36,212 nt of DNA from an uncultured Pseudomonadota bacterium. GTDB lineage: Bacteria; Pseudomonadota; Gammaproteobacteria; Steroidobacterales; Steroidobacteraceae. Within the stretch, counting starts at the first letter, position 1. Every line of letters starts with the position of its first letter. Made by a program: the position numbers and the translations under genes. Location: positions 1 to 36,212 of the forward strand of contig CAIMCI010000009.1 of the NCBI GenBank assembly GCA_903839465.1. The letters run 5' to 3'. Under the pieces are notes generated by a model. The model was not told the DNA's origin. It saw only the letters and a program-made list of their open reading frames with translations, and made no database searches. This document shows positions 28,420-36,180 of the stretch, piece by piece.

Positions 28420-29190
28420 TCACAGGTGCAGTTCCCGAAGGAACGCGGCCGGATCCTCGCCGCGCTCGAGGACCTCGACCAGCGCCGAGCCGACGATCAC
28501 GCCGTCGACGTGCGGCGCGAGGCGCTCGACCTGGCCGCGGTTGCGGATGCCGAAACCCGCGCAGACCGGGGCACCGGACGCCGCCCGGACGGCATCGAGA
28601 TAGGACAGTACCTCGTCGGGGACATCGACGCTCCTGCCGGTGATCCCGGTCATCGTCACCGCGTAGACGAAGCCATCGGCATGGCGGCACAGCGCCTCGA
28701 GGCGCTCGCGCGGGGTCACGGGCGTCACCATCTGCACGAGCGCGAGGCCCTCGGCCTTCAGCGCGGTCGCGAACTCGTCGCCCTCCTCGTTCGGCAGGTC
28801 CGGCACGATGAACCCGGAGACGCCGGCGGCGCGCGCCGCCGCCGGCAGCCGGTCGAAGCCGAAGCGCAGGAGCGGGTTGAGATAGCTCATCAGCAGCAGG
28901 GGCGCCGCCGGACGTGCCGCAGCCCCGCGCAGCTCGTCCAGGATCCACGCCAGGGTCACGCCGTCCTTGAGCGCCGCTTCGCTCGCCCGCTGGATCGTCA
29001 TGCCGTCCGCCATCGGGTCGGTGAACGGCACGCCGATCTCGATGACATCGGCAGCGCTGCCGATCCGCGTCAGCGTCTCCAGGAACGTCGCGCGCCGCGG
29101 GAAGCCCGCCGTCATGAACGCGACGATCGCCGGCCGGCCGGCCGACTTCGCCGCGGCGATCGCCTCCGCAATGTTCAGGCTCTTGCTCAT
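28420..29190 (-). CDS. trpA: tryptophan synthase alpha chain
   Basis: Cleaves indole-3-glycerol phosphate to indole and glyceraldehyde 3-phosphate and passes indole to TrpB. The catalytic residues are present: Glu51 and Asp62 in EIGVPFTDPMADG. Other marks are MTAGFP, FIVPDLPNEEGDEF and GFGIRNRGQV. The 256 residues are somewhat shorter than the enteric protein, as is common. The ATG shares a base with the trpB TAA (TAATG), so the two are translationally coupled. It is the last trp gene of the operon. Its stop codon lies in a small hairpin (28400-28422). Confidence 0.97.
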   Translation of the reverse strand: MSKSLNIAEAIAAAKSAGRPAIVAFMTAGFPRRATFLETLTRIGSAADVIEIGVPFTDPMADGMTIQRASEAALKDGVTLAWILDELRGAAARPAAPLLLMSYLNPLLRFGFDRLPAAARAAGVSGFIVPDLPNEEGDEFATALKAEGLALVQMVTPVTPRERLEALCRHADGFVYAVTMTGITGRSVDVPDEVLSYLDAVRAASGAPVCAGFGIRNRGQVERLAPHVDGVIVGSALVEVLERGEDPAAFLRELHL

Positions 29191-30434
29191 TACAGCTTCC
29201 CCTTGAGGAGCGTTCGGGTCAGGGTCGGCATGTCCTTGTCGCCGCGACCGGACAGGCCGATCAGGATGCGCGCGCCGGGATGCGTTGCCGCGTAGCGCTT
29301 GGCGGCAGCGAAAGCGTGCGCGGTCTCGATCGCCGGCAGGATGCCTTCGCTGCAGGACAGCTCCTCGAGCGCCTCGAGCGCCTCGTCATCGCCGATGCTG
29401 CCGTACTTGACGCGGCCGATGCTGCTCAGGAACGCATGCTCGGGTCCCACGCCCGGATAGTCGAGGCCCGCCGACACCGAGTGCGTCTCCTGAATCTGGC
29501 CGTGCTCGTCGTGCAGGAGCAGGCTGTAGGCCCCCTGCAGCACGCCGGGCGTGCCAAAGCAAATGGTTGCCGCGTTGTCACCGAGCCCCGGTCCGCGCCC
29601 ACCGGCCTCGATCCCGTGGATCTCCACGTCACGGTCGGCGACGAACGGATAGAACATGCCGATCGCGTTGGAGCCGCCGCCCACGCAGGCGAACACGGCG
29701 GTCGGCAGGCCGCCGGCCTGCGCCTGCATCTGCACGCGCGCCTCCCGGCCGATGATCGCCTGCAGCTCGCGCACGAGGTACGGATACGGATGCGGGCCGA
29801 TGGCCGAACCGAGCAGGTAGTAGGTGCCGTTCGGATCGGACACCCAGTCGCGCAGCGCCTCGTCGACCGCGGCGCGCAGCGTCTGGTCGCCACTGGTGAC
29901 CGGCTTGACCGTGGCGCCCATCAGCTTCATGCGCCCGACGTTGGGCGCCTGACGCTCGATGTCGACCGCACCCATGTAGACCGTTACCGGCAGACCGAGG
30001 CGCGCGCAGGCCGCGGCGCTGGCGACGCCGTGCTGACCGGCACCGGTCTCGGCGACGACGCGCTTGGCGCCGAGGCGCTTGGCGAGCAGCGCCTGGCCGA
30101 TGGCGCTGTTGATCTTGTGCGCGCCGGTATGGGCGAGGTCCTCGCGCTTCATCCAGATGTCCGCACCCCAGCGCGCCGACAGCGTCGTCGCGTGGCTCAA
30201 GGGCGTCGGCCTGCCGACCCAGGTATTGAGCTCGCGCGCGAGGTCCGCCTGGTAGTCCGGATCCTTGAGCCAGCGCCGCATGCCGGCCTCGAGCCGGTCG
30301 AGGGCGGGAATCAGCGTTTCCGGCACGTAGCGGCCGCCGAACGGGCCGAAGCGGCCGCGGGCATCGGGAAAGTCGCCGCGTATCTCGCGGGCCAGAAGCT
30401 CGGCGGCCGCGGCCGGATCGATCATCGCGCTCAT
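29190..30434 (-). CDS. trpB: tryptophan synthase beta chain
   Basis: A PLP enzyme condensing indole with serine to make tryptophan. The PLP lysine is Lys107 in TGAHKINSAIGQ. Family blocks include FGPFGGRYVPETLIPAL, ETGAGQHGVASA, and the phosphate loop VGGGSNAIGMFYPF. The protein is 414 residues. ATG 30434 has GGAG 7 bases upstream and overlaps the trpF stop as ATGA. An upstream start at 30449 would add five unrelated residues. It lies between trpF and trpA with zero-gap coupling on both sides. Confidence 0.97.
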   Translation of the reverse strand: MSAMIDPAAAAELLAREIRGDFPDARGRFGPFGGRYVPETLIPALDRLEAGMRRWLKDPDYQADLARELNTWVGRPTPLSHATTLSARWGADIWMKREDLAHTGAHKINSAIGQALLAKRLGAKRVVAETGAGQHGVASAAACARLGLPVTVYMGAVDIERQAPNVGRMKLMGATVKPVTSGDQTLRAAVDEALRDWVSDPNGTYYLLGSAIGPHPYPYLVRELQAIIGREARVQMQAQAGGLPTAVFACVGGGSNAIGMFYPFVADRDVEIHGIEAGGRGPGLGDNAATICFGTPGVLQGAYSLLLHDEHGQIQETHSVSAGLDYPGVGPEHAFLSSIGRVKYGSIGDDEALEALEELSCSEGILPAIETAHAFAAAKRYAATHPGARILIGLSGRGDKDMPTLTRTLLKGKL

Positions 30435-31042
30435 GTTGCAACTCCACACAGGTTGCGCGCCTCGGCGCGCGCGTTTGAGACAAACTCTCGTATCAGTTCG
30501 GGATCCTTGATGCCCGGTGCGCTTTCGACGCCGCTGGACACGTCGACGCCCGCCGGCCGCACCGCGCGCAGGGCCGCGGCGACGTTCGCCGGGCTCAGGC
30601 CCCCGGCCAGCAGCAGGCCGCCGTGGCGGGCAAGCCGCGACGCCTCGTCCCAGTCGGCCACGCGCCCGGCACCGCTGTGCGCCCCTTCGTAGAGGAATCG
30701 CTCCGGCAGCGGCTCGGGCACGGGCAGTCCCGAGCGGACGACGGGCAGCACGCCAAGGCCGGCCGGCAGCACGAGGTGTGGCAAGTCACCGGCATCGGTC
30801 TGCAGGCGCGCCGGGCGGAGGACCCGTGCGATCTCGTCGACGAGCGACTGCGCCGGATGGCGCGACACGGCGATCACATCGACCGTCGACGGCACGCCGC
30901 GGGCAAGCTCGGCGGCACGGGCCACGCTGACCTGCCGTGGCGAGCTCGCCATCACGAAACCGATCGCGTCGGCACCGGCCTCAACCGCGGCGGCGACCGC
31001 CGCCTCGCTCGTCAGGCCGCAGATCTTGATGTAGAGGCTCAC
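30431..31042 (-). CDS. trpF: phosphoribosylanthranilate isomerase (divergent active site)
   Basis: The isomerase step between TrpD and TrpC. This 203-residue TrpF keeps KICGLT (Cys8, the catalytic thiol position), GADAIGFVMASSPRQV, AGGLSPANV and VDVSSGVESAPGIKD. Two usual blocks differ. Where most TrpF have a QLHG-type strand it reads ARLQTDAGD (78-86). Where the catalytic Asp is normally in a LLD-type strand it reads FLYEGAHSGAG, with Glu119 instead. The GTG at 31042 overlaps the trpC stop as GTGA. It is a separate gene, not fused to trpC as in enterics. Its activity is probable from the operon, but the Asp-to-Glu change needs testing. Confidence 0.9.
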   Translation of the reverse strand: MSLYIKICGLTSEAAVAAAVEAGADAIGFVMASSPRQVSVARAAELARGVPSTVDVIAVSRHPAQSLVDEIARVLRPARLQTDAGDLPHLVLPAGLGVLPVVRSGLPVPEPLPERFLYEGAHSGAGRVADWDEASRLARHGGLLLAGGLSPANVAAALRAVRPAGVDVSSGVESAPGIKDPELIREFVSNARAEARNLCGVAT

Positions 31043-31886
31043 GAGCCGCTGTCGGTCTGCCGGGCGGCGCGCCCCGCCTCGATCATCCGCCGGCCGAGCG
31101 CCACCGGATCCGGCGCGCTCATGAGCGCGGTGCCGACGAGCGCCAGGCCGTAGCCGGCGGCTGCCAGGCGCGCCGCGTCCCCGGCATCGACCAGGCCGCT
31201 CTCGGCGACCCGCGGGTGCCGCGTCGGCAACGACGGGCAGAGCTCCAGGAGCCGCTCCGGCACCACCTTCAGGGTCACGAGGTCGCGGCTGTTGACGCCG
31301 ATGAGCAGTTCGGCGGCCGGCCCGCTCCAGGTCGCGGCGGCGCGCGCCGCACGGTCGATGTCGGTGGCATCGAACGCCTCGAGCAGCACGAACAGGCCGA
31401 GCTCTGCGGCGACGGCGAGAAGCTCGGCAAGGACCGCGTCCGTCAGCATGCGCACGATCAGCAGCACACCGCCGGCACCGGCGGCGCGCGCCTCGTAGAG
31501 CTGATAGGCGTCGACCAGAAAATCCTTGCGCATGGCCGGCACGCCGTACGGTCGAAGCACCCCGGCCGCCGCGCGCAGATGCGCGAGATCGCCCCGGAAG
31601 CGCTCGGGTTCGGTCAGCACCGAGACGATGGCGGCCCCGGCCCTGGCATAGCCCTCGACCTGGGCGGCGATGTTGAGCGCATCGCCCGCGAGCACGCCGT
31701 TGGCGGGCGAACTCAGCTTGAGCTCCATGATCAGGTCGAAGCCGGCCGGTGACAGCGCGAGTCGTGGCGCAGGCGGGCTGGTGCGGGCGAGTTCCCGCAC
31801 CGCCTCGAGCGACAGCCCAGCCGCCGCGCGCGCCGAGCGCGCGGCGCTGGCGCGGGCCATGCCGGCCAGGAAGTCGGGCTCGCCGC

Positions 31887-31890
<4 letters not shown>
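31039..31890 (-). CDS. trpC: indole-3-glycerol-phosphate synthase (divergent)
   Basis: Closes the indole ring from carboxyphenylamino-deoxyribulose phosphate. The 283-residue protein has the TIM-barrel pattern and all expected catalytic positions: Glu56 and Lys58 in MELKLSSPANG, Lys122 in MRKDFLVD, Glu171 in LLEAFD, Asn200 in IGVNSRDL and Glu230 in VAESG. Several motifs depart from the norm: EIKRASPSKG is replaced by ELKLSSPANG, INNRD by VNSRD, and the EVH block by EAF. The GTG start overlaps the trpD stop (GTGA), and its own stop overlaps the trpF start. Together with trpF it is the least conventional part of the operon. Confidence 0.92.
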
Positions 31891-32918
<1,028 letters not shown>

Positions 32919-32934
32919 CCGTTGCTGCTCCGGC

Positions 32935-33522
32935 TCAGGCCGCCGCACGGCCAAAGGCGAGGAAATTGCCGAGCAGGCGCTGGCCTTCGGGCGTCAGCAC
33001 CGATTCGGGGTGGAACTGCACGCCCTCGACGGCGAGTGAGGCGTGCCGCACGCCCATGATCTCGCCGTCCTCGGTGCGCGAGGTGATCACGAGCTCGGTG
33101 GGCAGCGATGCCTCGGCGGCGATCAGCGAGTGATAGCGACCCGCCTGGAACGGGTTGCCGAGGCCCCGGTACACGCCCTCGCCGTCGTGGGTGACGAGCG
33201 ACGTCTTGCCGTGCATGAGGCGCGAATGGCGGACCACCGAACCGCCGTAGACCTCGACGATCGACTGGTGCCCCAGGCAGACCCCGAGCACCGGCACGTG
33301 GCCGGCAAAGGCCGCGATCATCGCCATCGACACGCCCGCTTCGCGCGGCGTTCCGGGACCCGGCGAGATGCACAGGTGGCTGGGATCGAGGCGCCGCGCC
33401 TCCTCGATCGTGATCTCGTCGTTGCGCCGTACCGTGACCTCGGCCCCTTCCATCTGGAAGGCCTGCACCAGGTTGTAGGTAAAGGAATCGTAGTTGTCGA
33501 TCAGCAGGAGCTTCACGGTCAC
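32935..33522 (-). CDS. trpG: anthranilate synthase component II (glutamine amidotransferase)
   Basis: Supplies ammonia from glutamine to TrpE. The class-I amidotransferase triad is Cys82 in GVCLGHQS, His171 and Glu173 in [22 protein letters not shown] and [11 protein letters not shown] are typical for TrpG/PabA. It has 195 residues. GTG 33522 overlaps the trpE stop (GTGA) and lies 4 bases after AGGAGG. GTG 33516 gives two residues less and better spacing. Its place directly after trpE favours a tryptophan role, although TrpG may also serve folate synthesis. Confidence 0.96.
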
Positions 33523-34919
33523 AGTTCCTCCTTCGCCAGCGTGAGCGCGCGGCCGAGCACCGCGCTCTTGGCGAGGACTTCGTCGTATTCGAGGTCGGGC
33601 ACCGAGTCGGCGACGATGCCGGCGCCGGCCTGGTAGGAGTAGCCACCGTCACCGAAGACCAGGGTGCGGATCGTGATCGCCTGGTCCATCTGCCCACCAG
33701 CGCCGAAGTAGCCCACCGTGCCGCCGTAGAAGCCGCGGCGCATGGGCTCCAGCTCCTCGATGATCTGCATCGCCCGCACCTTCGGCGCGCCGACCAGCGT
33801 GCCGGCGGGGAAGGCTGCGCCGAAGAGGTCGAAGGCATCGCAGCCGTCCTTCAGGCGCCCGGTGACCCCGCTGACCATGTGCATCACGTGGCTGTAGCGC
33901 TCGATGACCCGGAACGGATCGACGCGAACCGTGCCGGGCACCGCGACCCGACCGAGATCGTTGCGGGCGAGATCGACGAGCATCACGTGCTCGGAGTTCT
34001 CCTTGACGTCGGCGAGGAGCTCGCGCGCGTTGGCGTCGTCCCGGTCGACGTCGGCACCGCGCGGCCGGGTGCCGGCGATCGGCCGCAGGCTCGCGGTGCC
34101 CGCCTGCAGCCGCACCAGCGCCTCGGGCGAGGAGCCGACGATCGTGTGCCTGCCGAGCTCGCAGAAGTACATGTACGGCGACGGGTTCAGCAGGCGCAGC
34201 GCGCGGTAGGCGAGAAACGGATCGAGTTCGCACTCGCCGGAGAAACGCGCGGACAGCACCAGCTGGTAGACATCGCCGGCGGCGATGTAGTCCTTCGCGC
34301 GGTGCACGCGCTCGACGTAGTCCGCGCGGTTGAGCGAGGCGAGGGGCGCCGCGACGCGGGCCGGCCGGCGGCCCGCGCCATAGCCGCCCTGCAGGGCGCG
34401 CACGATCTCCCGCTTCAGCGCCTGGCGCTCGGTCTCGGGTCCCGCGTGCAGCAGTGCGATGCGATGCGTGACGTGGTCGAAGCAGAGCAGGGATTCCGGC
34501 GCCAGGTAGCAGGCGTCCGGCACCTCCGGCTGGACCGGGTGGCGGCTCGGCACGCGCTCGAGGTAGCGGACGAGATCGTAGGCCGCGACACCGACCAGGC
34601 CACCGGCGAGCGGCACGCCGGGCAGCACCTCCGGTCGCGGCGCGGCGGCGAGCGCCTCGCGCAGCAGCGCATAGAGCGCCGCGGCATCGGCGGGCTTCGC
34701 CCGCCGTTCGGCCACGCCGCCGCCGGCGCGGGCGAAGTCGACGCCGTCGTGGCCGAGCGTGAGGCTCAGGCAGTCGCCGAAGCCGATGAACGAGTAGCGG
34801 GCAACCCGCTCGCCGCCTTCGACGCTCTCCAGCAGAAAGCGCGGCCGGAAGGGTCGGAGCTTGAGGTACGCCGAGACCGGCGTGTCCAGGTCGGCAGCTA
34901 TGTCAAACAGGCTGTGCAT
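33519..34919 (-). CDS. trpE: anthranilate synthase component I
   Basis: Makes anthranilate from chorismate with ammonia from TrpG. The feedback site motif LLES (29-32) is present, implying allosteric inhibition by tryptophan. The catalytic domain carries [69 protein letters not shown] and [11 protein letters not shown]. The length of 466 residues is usual for gammaproteobacterial or TrpE-type proteins. ATG 34919 has GAGGA about 5 bases upstream. The frame extends 19 codons further, but that segment runs through the attenuator terminator and is not coding. Expression is controlled by the trpL attenuator just upstream. Confidence 0.97.
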
Positions 34920-34956
34920 GCATTCCTCGGCTGCGGCGAGTCCGGGGAGCGGGCAC

Positions 34957-34992
34957 AAAAAAACCCACCCCGGCACTCGTCGGAGATGGGTT
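34957..34992 (-). terminator. trp attenuator terminator hairpin
   Basis: On the minus strand AACCCA plus CTCCG pair with CGGGG plus TGGGTT as an 11-bp stem with one bulged T and an 8-base loop. Seven T follow in succession (plus 34957-34963), two of them in the stem. It lies 38 bases before the trpE start and 46 bases after the leader-peptide stop. Its 5' arm TCTCCG (plus 34981-34986) is also the partner of the antiterminator. Confidence 0.88.
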
Positions 34993-35037
34993 CGCGATTC
35001 TGACCGGTAAGCCCCTAACGGGGCGCCATGGACCCGC

Positions 35038-35091
35038 TCACCTCTCCGAGGAGAGGCGCCACCAACGCGTCTTCTGTGCGAGTCCCTTCAT
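35038..35091 (-). CDS. trpL: trp operon leader peptide (17 residues, two adjacent Trp codons)
   Basis: A short reading frame, ATG at 35091 to TGA at 35038-35040, encoding MKGLAQKTRWWRLSSER. The adjacent Trp codons 10 and 11 (plus 35059-35064) are the sensor. They are followed at once by CCTCTC (plus 35051-35056) and GAGAGG (35041-35046), which form a hairpin with a 4-base loop. CGGAGA (plus 35043-35048) can instead pair perfectly with TCTCCG (34981-34986), the 5' arm of the terminator. Ribosome stalling at Trp would cover the first arm and favour that antiterminator. The ATG has no Shine-Dalgarno and the promoter -10 ends 10 bases before it, so the message is almost leaderless. Confidence 0.85.
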   Translation of the reverse strand: MKGLAQKTRWWRLSSER

Positions 35092-35101
35092 GATGGCGTG
35101 G

Positions 35102-35131
35102 AGTATCCCGTGCCCCGCCGCGCCCGGTCAA
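35102..35131 (-). promoter_or_regulatory. trp operon promoter
   Basis: On the minus strand TTGACC (plus 35126-35131, 5 of 6 to -35) and GATACT (35102-35107, 4 of 6 to -10) are 18 bases apart. The -10 ends 10 bases before the trpL ATG, so the 5' end would be about 3-4 bases before AUG. The promoter lies in the 51 bases between the araC-type gene and trpL. Confidence 0.65.
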
Positions 35132-35142
35132 GGGCGCTCCGG

Positions 35143-36180
35143 TTACTCGGGCGTGGCGAAGCGTCGGTAGCCGGCCTCGGCCGGCACGCCGACGGCGACC
35201 GGATGCGACGGCACGGGCCGCAGCTTCGACTGCGCGCGGGCCCGCACCAGGTCCGACAGCAGGCTGTCCGGGACAGCCTCCGGGCCGCGGCCCTGCAGGT
35301 CGCGCCGGTACTGGTCGGGCGTCGTCGCCCGGTAGTCGATGAATAGGCGCAGGAGCGTCGAGCGGTCGGCGATACCCACGCGCCGGGCAATGACCCCGAG
35401 CGGCGCCGACTCGGCCAGCAGCAGGCGGCTTGCCACCGCGACCCGCTTGCAGCGCAGGTACTCCATCGGCGTGATGCCGTGCACGGCGACGAACATGCGC
35501 AGGTAATGGAACTTCGCGAGGCAGGCGACGTCCGCGAGGAGCTTCAGCTGCAGCGGCTCGTCGTAATGCGACAGCAGGTGGTCGGTCGAGTCCGAGACGC
35601 GCCGGTAGATCTCGTGGCGGGTCCGCTCGCGCGCATGGGTGAGGGAAATCACGTGGTCGCACTCGCGCCGCCGCGCCGCCAGGAGCGCGGTCAGCAGTTC
35701 CTCGGCGCGCCGTTCCCACGTCTCGCGGCTCGTCGAGGCGGCCGCGTCGCCGGCGCCGGCAAACGCACGGATCAGCGACGCCACGGCCGGTTCGTAGGGC
35801 CGCAGGCGCTCGATGAAGCCGACCGTCTCGCCCCGGCTCGTGCCGGCGACGCGCCCGAGGCAGTGCTTCAGCGTCGCCTCGCTGAAGTAGATGGCGCAGT
35901 AGGTGTATGTCTCGTCCGCCGGCAGCGCGACACTGGCCGTCGACTGGGCATTGACAACGAGGAACGCGTCGTCGTCGACGTTGAGGCGCGCGTCGCCCAC
36001 GCGGTGCGCGATCCGGCCACCGAACACGGCCCGCAGCGACACGCGGTCCGCCAGGGTCGGCAGCGGCGGGTCGCCGGCGCGCGCGATCACGATGACCGAG
36101 TCACCGTCCAGGCCCGACCAGAAGGCCGTCCGCTCGGTCTGGCTTGCAAACTCCGGCACCGATTCCAGAAAGATTCCCAT
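35143..36180 (-). CDS. AraC-family transcriptional regulator
   Basis: A 345-residue DNA-binding regulator. The N-terminal ~180 residues form a sensor domain with a jelly-roll-like pattern (for example DDDAFLVVNAQSTASVALPADETYTYCAIYF) and no recognisable ligand site. The C-terminal HTH pair of AraC proteins lies at about 196-296: LQLKLLADVACLAKFHYLRMFVAVHGITPMEYL and the second helix set ending RSTLLRLFIDYRATTPDQYRRDL. About 50 residues follow beyond the usual end, rich in Pro and Arg, which is atypical. ATG 36180 has AAGGA about 8 bases upstream. The gene ends 36 bases before the trp -10. It may or may not control the trp operon; nothing in the sequence links them except position. Confidence 0.9.
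   Translation of the reverse strand: MGIFLESVPEFASQTERTAFWSGLDGDSVIVIARAGDPPLPTLADRVSLRAVFGGRIAHRVGDARLNVDDDAFLVVNAQSTASVALPADETYTYCAIYFSEATLKHCLGRVAGTSRGETVGFIERLRPYEPAVASLIRAFAGAGDAAASTSRETWERRAEELLTALLAARRRECDHVISLTHARERTRHEIYRRVSDSTDHLLSHYDEPLQLKLLADVACLAKFHYLRMFVAVHGITPMEYLRCKRVAVASRLLLAESAPLGVIARRVGIADRSTLLRLFIDYRATTPDQYRRDLQGRGPEAVPDSLLSDLVRARAQSKLRPVPSHPVAVGVPAEAGYRRFATPE

Follow-up and report, generated by a model that had tools for sequence, protein, structure and literature searches.

The trp attenuator of Escherichia coli operates through the alternative pairings 1:2, 2:3 and 3:4 and carries tandem Trp codons at positions 10-11 of its leader gene, trpL, which has a longer untranslated stretch and is translated from a site led by a Shine-Dalgarno sequence. 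Sequestration of this leader site is known from older E. coli work. Attenuators based on leader peptides are widespread in Proteobacteria (PMC2965389). In the alphaproteobacterium Sinorhizobium meliloti, trpE(G) is one of three trp operons and is attenuated by trpL, a short reading frame with consecutive Trp codons in the part that encodes the C-terminal half of its peptide; the corresponding transcript, rnTrpL, is reported to start at the trpL ATG, and roles in trans have been reported for both rnTrpL and the peptide peTrpL (PMC7298713). A Bradyrhizobium leader peptide, MSTAVAPARLWWRTS, has a Trp-rich tail similar to the one described below (PMC7298713). In the titles and abstract openings of the open-access papers searched, no report of leaderless trp attenuators in Gammaproteobacteria was found.

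This analysis concerns the region preceding trpE in a stretch of 36,212 nucleotides from an uncultured member of the Steroidobacteraceae, referred to here as the window. The attenuator found there is classical in kind, and its less usual property is a leader that is predicted to be leaderless. It shares with E. coli the 1:2, 2:3, 3:4 logic, the position of the Trp codons at 10-11 and the contrast between stalled and terminating ribosomes in simulation. The two systems differ in their dimensions. The last Trp codon and the terminator are 65 nt apart in the window and 54 nt apart in E. coli, and 89 leaders likewise have a median of 65 nt; the terminator comprises 12 pairs over 33 nt in the window and 8 pairs over 21 nt in E. 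coli. The suggestion of the first-pass annotation that the segments are much shorter than in enteric bacteria and lie closer to the Trp codons was therefore not borne out. Furthermore, the 1:2 helix begins directly after the Trp codons in the window, whereas the fold of the free E. coli leader has it beginning at these codons, and trpL of E. coli is led by a Shine-Dalgarno sequence, whereas the leader described here is predicted to lack one. E. coli also possesses the Trp repressor TrpR, while none was found in three genomes of the window's genus.

With regard to S. meliloti trpLE(G), the leader start at the ATG was mapped there, whereas here it is predicted from the position of the promoter. 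In addition, S. meliloti has three trp operons, whereas the window, from what is probably a gammaproteobacterial group, carries all of trpEGDCFBA as one operon. The Rfam Trp_leader family (RF00513) matched the window over its full length with only 18.8 bits (E 0.19), below the gathering cut-off of 41, and by this gathering-score criterion the leader lies outside RF00513. None of 59 genomes, the window's own included, gave a match above the cut-off in a search whose stricter filters lose some weak matches and in which the E. coli control was positive. Three weak matches were obtained over these genomes (L188, L189 and L190), two of which (L188 and L189) were not located at trpE and were treated as chance.

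Architecture and conservation of the leader region

All elements lie on the minus strand. A sigma-70-like promoter, TTGACC-18-GATACT, was found at 35102-35131 by promoter scan, followed by the 17-codon leader trpL at 35038-35091, which encodes MKGLAQKTRWWRLSSER and ends in TGA. Its tandem Trp codons 10-11, the sensor of the system, occupy 35059-35064. Segment 1 (35051-35058) follows them directly and forms an 8-bp 1:2 hairpin, CGCCUCUC/GAGAGGUG, in which 35058-35051 pairs with 35046-35039. Segment 2 (35039-35048) supplies the 3' arm of this hairpin and the 5' arm of the antiterminator 2:3, and it includes CGGAGA (35048-35043), which is complementary to TCTCCG (34986-34981). The latter belongs to segment 3 (GAACCCATCTCCG, 34981-34993), the 3' arm of the antiterminator and the 5' arm of the terminator, and segment 4 (34961-34972) provides the 3' arm of the terminator. 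The terminator thus spans 34993-34961 with 12 pairs (-16.7 kcal/mol) and leads into a T-run at 34957-34963. Folding of the leader RNA gave a z of -2.8 relative to shuffles, 2 of 200 of which folded equally well. A small hairpin, GCCCC-GUUA-GGGGC, was also seen between segments 2 and 3 in the minimum-energy fold (35024-35011, minus strand), perhaps as a spacer.

Downstream, trpE is the first gene of the operon (33519-34919, ATG at 34919; Pfam Anth_synt_I_N and Chorismate_bind), followed at 28420-33522 by trpG, trpD, trpC, trpF, trpB and trpA, which were recognised by the Pfam families GATase, Glycos_transf_3, IGPS, PRAI (corresponding to trpF), PALP and Trp_syntA. The gene order is accordingly trpE-G-D-C-F-B-A. 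The first-pass annotation had proposed a minus-strand promoter and a 17-codon leader with Trp codons 10-11, all of which are present at 35131-35038, as well as a hairpin directly after these codons, a terminator with a T-run before trpE, an exact CGGAGA/TCTCCG complementarity and a full trp operon; each of these was recovered. Upstream, a gene for an AraC-type regulator (HTH_18, 35143-36180, minus strand) ends 11 nt before the trp -35 box on the same strand.

Conservation was assessed in 118 genomes, the window's own included, that belong to its genus, family or order; 103 of them had usable sequence before a full trpE start. The other 15 were left out: one contig (G002) has only 10 nt before trpE, a contig end cuts trpE in G066 and G089, and the remaining 12 gave weaker or paralogous matches alone. 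The set includes Steroidobacter gossypii (L033) and Steroidobacteraceae metagenome-assembled genomes (L057, L066). A Trp leader precedes trpE in 97 of the 103 genomes, 94 having been identified by script and three by eye (L143, L147, L153), and 92 of the 94 leaders found by script have two, three or four Trp codons in a row. By eye, the peptides appear poorly conserved in their N-terminal parts, outside this run. A run of at least four T at the expected terminator place was not found in five scripted leaders (L015, L030, L150, L157, L165), nor in the three added by eye. No leader was present in six of the 103 genomes (L114, L177 and L182-L185), the last four of which represent one other family. 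Upstream of trpE, L114 (genome G042) keeps an ATG and a similar promoter, but neither a Trp leader nor a terminator with a T-run was found there; it is perhaps a decayed attenuator. At the level of the class, the 28 loci with more distant TrpE that were available among 86 matches outside the order group contained no WW leader in 25 cases and a WW leader in 3.

A few records carry unexpected titles. The trpE gene and leader of L054 (CAMCBU010000002.1), titled Klebsiella pneumoniae, resemble those of the window's family, and similar leaders are borne by metagenome-assembled genomes titled Acidimicrobiia, Actinobacteria and Gemmatimonadetes (L061, L062, L064). These four records are probably mislabelled or mis-binned.

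Covariation and the predicted pairing switch

Covariation was evaluated by permutation, comparing the complementarity of each leader's own segments with that of segments swapped between species. Two leaders without a terminator call (L021, L157) and three others (L151, L163, L166) were dropped from the pairing tests, leaving 89 leaders, which were thinned to 55, 26 or 10. Among 26 diverged leaders, helix 3:4 was the best supported (z 10.1, reached by 0 of 10000 permutations), and helices 1:2 (z 3.3, 6 of 10000) and 2:3 (z 3.5, 4 of 10000) were also recovered. The control pairings 1:3, 2:4 and 1:4 were null in the swap test, and the outcome for helices and controls was the same with 55 leaders. 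With 10 leaders, 3:4 was still strong (0 of 10000), while 1:2 and 2:3 weakened to 364 and 295 of 10000. Given that segment 3 is nearly invariant, just 14 of 55 leaders lie above their own row median for 2:3, and the support for this helix comes from lineages with a changed segment 3, such as L131, L120, L160 and L173.

The minimum-energy fold of the window contains a further helix, in which leader codons 3-5 (GGACTCGC, 35078-35085) pair with the stretch past segment 2 (GCGGGTCC, 35030-35037). For this outer helix, the swap test with 55 leaders was reached by 1 of 20000 permutations, duplex energies by 31 of 20000, and six settings by 0 to 16 of 10000. Under stricter thinning the signal was weak, with 552 to 2003 of 10000 at 26 leaders and 82 to 1236 at 10. 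The window's own pairing is unremarkable, standing at row percentile 0.51 and being equalled or beaten by 8 of 25 foreign partners. The comparative evidence for this outer helix, by which the leader start would be shut off, is suggestive only. In the same model, the region before the leader start of the free E. coli leader pairs with a distal stretch, which resembles the leader-site sequestration described in that organism.

The pairing switch was simulated with a thermodynamic model in which leaders were cut just before segment 4 and the footprint of the ribosome was kept unpaired, and the share of segment 3 in pairs with the segment-2 region served as the readout. Across 55 leaders, the mean share was 0.65 with the ribosome stalled at the last Trp codon and 0.68 at the first, compared with 0.13 at the stop codon and 0.35 in free RNA. 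Stalling exceeded the stop position by more than 0.05 in 50 of the 55 leaders, the reverse being seen in 2, and it exceeded free RNA in 35, with the reverse in 3. The window behaved likewise, with shares of 0.64 (last Trp), 0.68 (first Trp), 0.00 (stop) and 0.39 (free), so that the masked folding proposed in the first-pass annotation gave the pairing of segments 2 and 3 upon stalling and not at the stop codon; in its free RNA, part of segment 3 already pairs with the segment-2 region. For the E. coli trp leader, the limits of segment 3 were widened by 10 nt and those of the segment-2 region by 4 nt relative to the 55 leaders; the shares were 0.53 at the last Trp codon, 0.26 at the first, and 0.00 both at the stop and in free RNA. 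The only other leader at hand from the same genus (L004) was not separated, with 0.59 upon stalling and 0.62 at the stop codon. In full-length RNA at equilibrium, the terminator stays in every ribosome state (P about 0.9), and it is likewise dominant in the complete E. coli RNA. The switch model therefore depends on co-transcriptional timing, that is, on the order of synthesis.

Promoter position and the predicted leaderless start

A feature absent from the first-pass annotation is the short distance between promoter and leader. TTGACC-18-GATACT is the only promoter-like match within 34700-35400, where shuffles average 0.1, and it ends 10 nt before the leader ATG. When the best-scoring promoter was chosen first and the first in-frame start codon second, 91 of the 94 scripted leaders had a promoter ending 6-10 nt ahead of the start codon, with gaps of 6, 7, 8, 9 and 10 nt in 29, 15, 26, 11 and 10 leaders, respectively. 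The outlying gaps of 56, 67 and 83 nt (L151, L163 and L166) likely reflect mis-called promoters. In 81 of 94 leaders an exact ATACT is placed 6-10 nt ahead of the start, compared with a 6.6% chance that a randomly placed stretch of five start positions contains an ATG. Over the 60 nt preceding the start, 13 leaders have no ATACT and one has a further copy at 46 nt. The pattern TTGAC-(18-20)-ATACT-(6-10)-ATG has a single match in the 3.86 Mb genome, at the trp leader itself; this and the Trp leader in 97 of 103 genomes take the arrangement beyond chance. The pattern is found in 35 of 40 genomes (own included). Its 46 listed places in these 40 genomes comprise 28 just before trpE, in 28 genomes, and 18 elsewhere, compared with 11 matches for the backward control pattern in the same genomes.

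Transcription starts about 7 nt past a -10 box. Together with the gap of 6-10 nt, this places the predicted start at the leader AUG or within 3 nt of it, which in the window would correspond to approximately 35094-35091, 0-3 nt before or at the ATG. The trp leader transcript is therefore predicted to be leaderless. One alternative is that the attenuator has an ordinary 5' untranslated region, in which case transcription would start further upstream and the leader would be translated from a Shine-Dalgarno site, as the longer untranslated stretch of E. coli trpL might lead one to expect. A weak match to the anti-Shine-Dalgarno sequence does exist in the 20 nt before the window's trpL (-4.1 kcal/mol, compared with -5.9 before trpE), but those bases overlap the promoter, and the median over 92 leaders is only -2.7 before trpL as opposed to -5.8 before trpE. 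Given also that the sole promoter-like site of the region ends so close to the ATG and that this spacing is kept in nearly all scripted leaders, we consider an ordinary untranslated region unlikely.

Proposed mechanism and wider meaning

The anatomy, the conservation, the covariation and the predicted pairing switch are all supported computationally. Since a Trp leader is present in 97 of 103 genomes, the helices 1:2, 2:3 and 3:4 covary and the masked folds switch, we hold with high confidence that transcription of the trp operon is attenuated here in a ribosome-mediated manner, by way of a leader peptide whose message is predicted to be leaderless. The Trp attenuation logic put forward in the first-pass annotation is upheld by the same evidence, which includes null control pairings and E. 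coli as a positive control. The annotation had named relatives without the Trp codons or the complementarity as the observation that would speak against it, and the relatives examined instead retain both features broadly. RNA polymerase would start at the leader AUG or at most about 3 nt from it, and a ribosome would load on the 5' end of the RNA without a Shine-Dalgarno site and translate toward UGG-UGG. When charged tRNA-Trp is scarce, the ribosome would stall at these codons and cover segment 1, which would expose segment 2 (GGAGAGGU) and let it form a helix with segment 3 (ACC..UCUCC); the 3:4 terminator would then not form and trpEGDCFBA would be transcribed. When Trp is plentiful, the ribosome would proceed to the UGA and cover segment 2, so that 3:4 could form and transcription would stop at the T-run. 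In RNA free of ribosomes, the 1:2 hairpin, perhaps held by the outer helix between codons 3-5 and the stretch past segment 2, would also favour termination.

Of 40 genomes searched, 30 gave a match for the Trp repressor (PF01371), whereas the three from the window's genus (G000, G001 and G002) gave none. The leader was seen in G000 and G001, and the contig of G002 ends too early to show it. In this genus, TrpR has apparently been lost and the attenuator kept, and since no TrpR was found there, Trp-specific control may rest mainly on attenuation. Transcription that is possibly unrepressed in genomes with no TrpR found, together with the similar leaderless layout and the Trp-rich tail shared with peptides such as that of Bradyrhizobium (PMC7298713), would be compatible with a role beyond cis, in which the leader RNA released by termination, or the peptide, acts in trans by analogy with rnTrpL and peTrpL of S. 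meliloti. The apparently poor conservation of the peptides' N-terminal parts argues against such a role, which we regard as quite improbable. A plain terminator or another Trp switch, bound by protein or built on an aptamer, with the short ORF being accidental, would agree with 3:4 being the best supported helix, but it is extremely improbable in view of the widely kept Trp codons, the covariation of 1:2 and 2:3, and the Rfam search of the window at gathering scores, which matched tRNA alone and no attenuator, riboswitch or T-box.

Considering the leaderless attenuator as a whole, it is conceivable, though doubtful, that the Steroidobacteraceae and their order possess a distinct attenuator class, which would combine leaderless initiation within the switch, a 5' end closed on the completed RNA by pairing past segment 2 and a possible trans-acting RNA or peptide outside Alphaproteobacteria. 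The locus represents a widely conserved trp attenuator, supported by computation, that scores below the cut-off of the Rfam model. It is also a probable example, in a gammaproteobacterial group, of a leaderless message that encodes a leader peptide. The natural variants, namely Trp runs of 2-4 codons, altered pairs between segments 2 and 3 and one apparently decayed copy, offer material on attenuator evolution. In the window's genus, predicted leaderless initiation, attenuation and the apparent absence of TrpR would together make up a compact design for sensing Trp.
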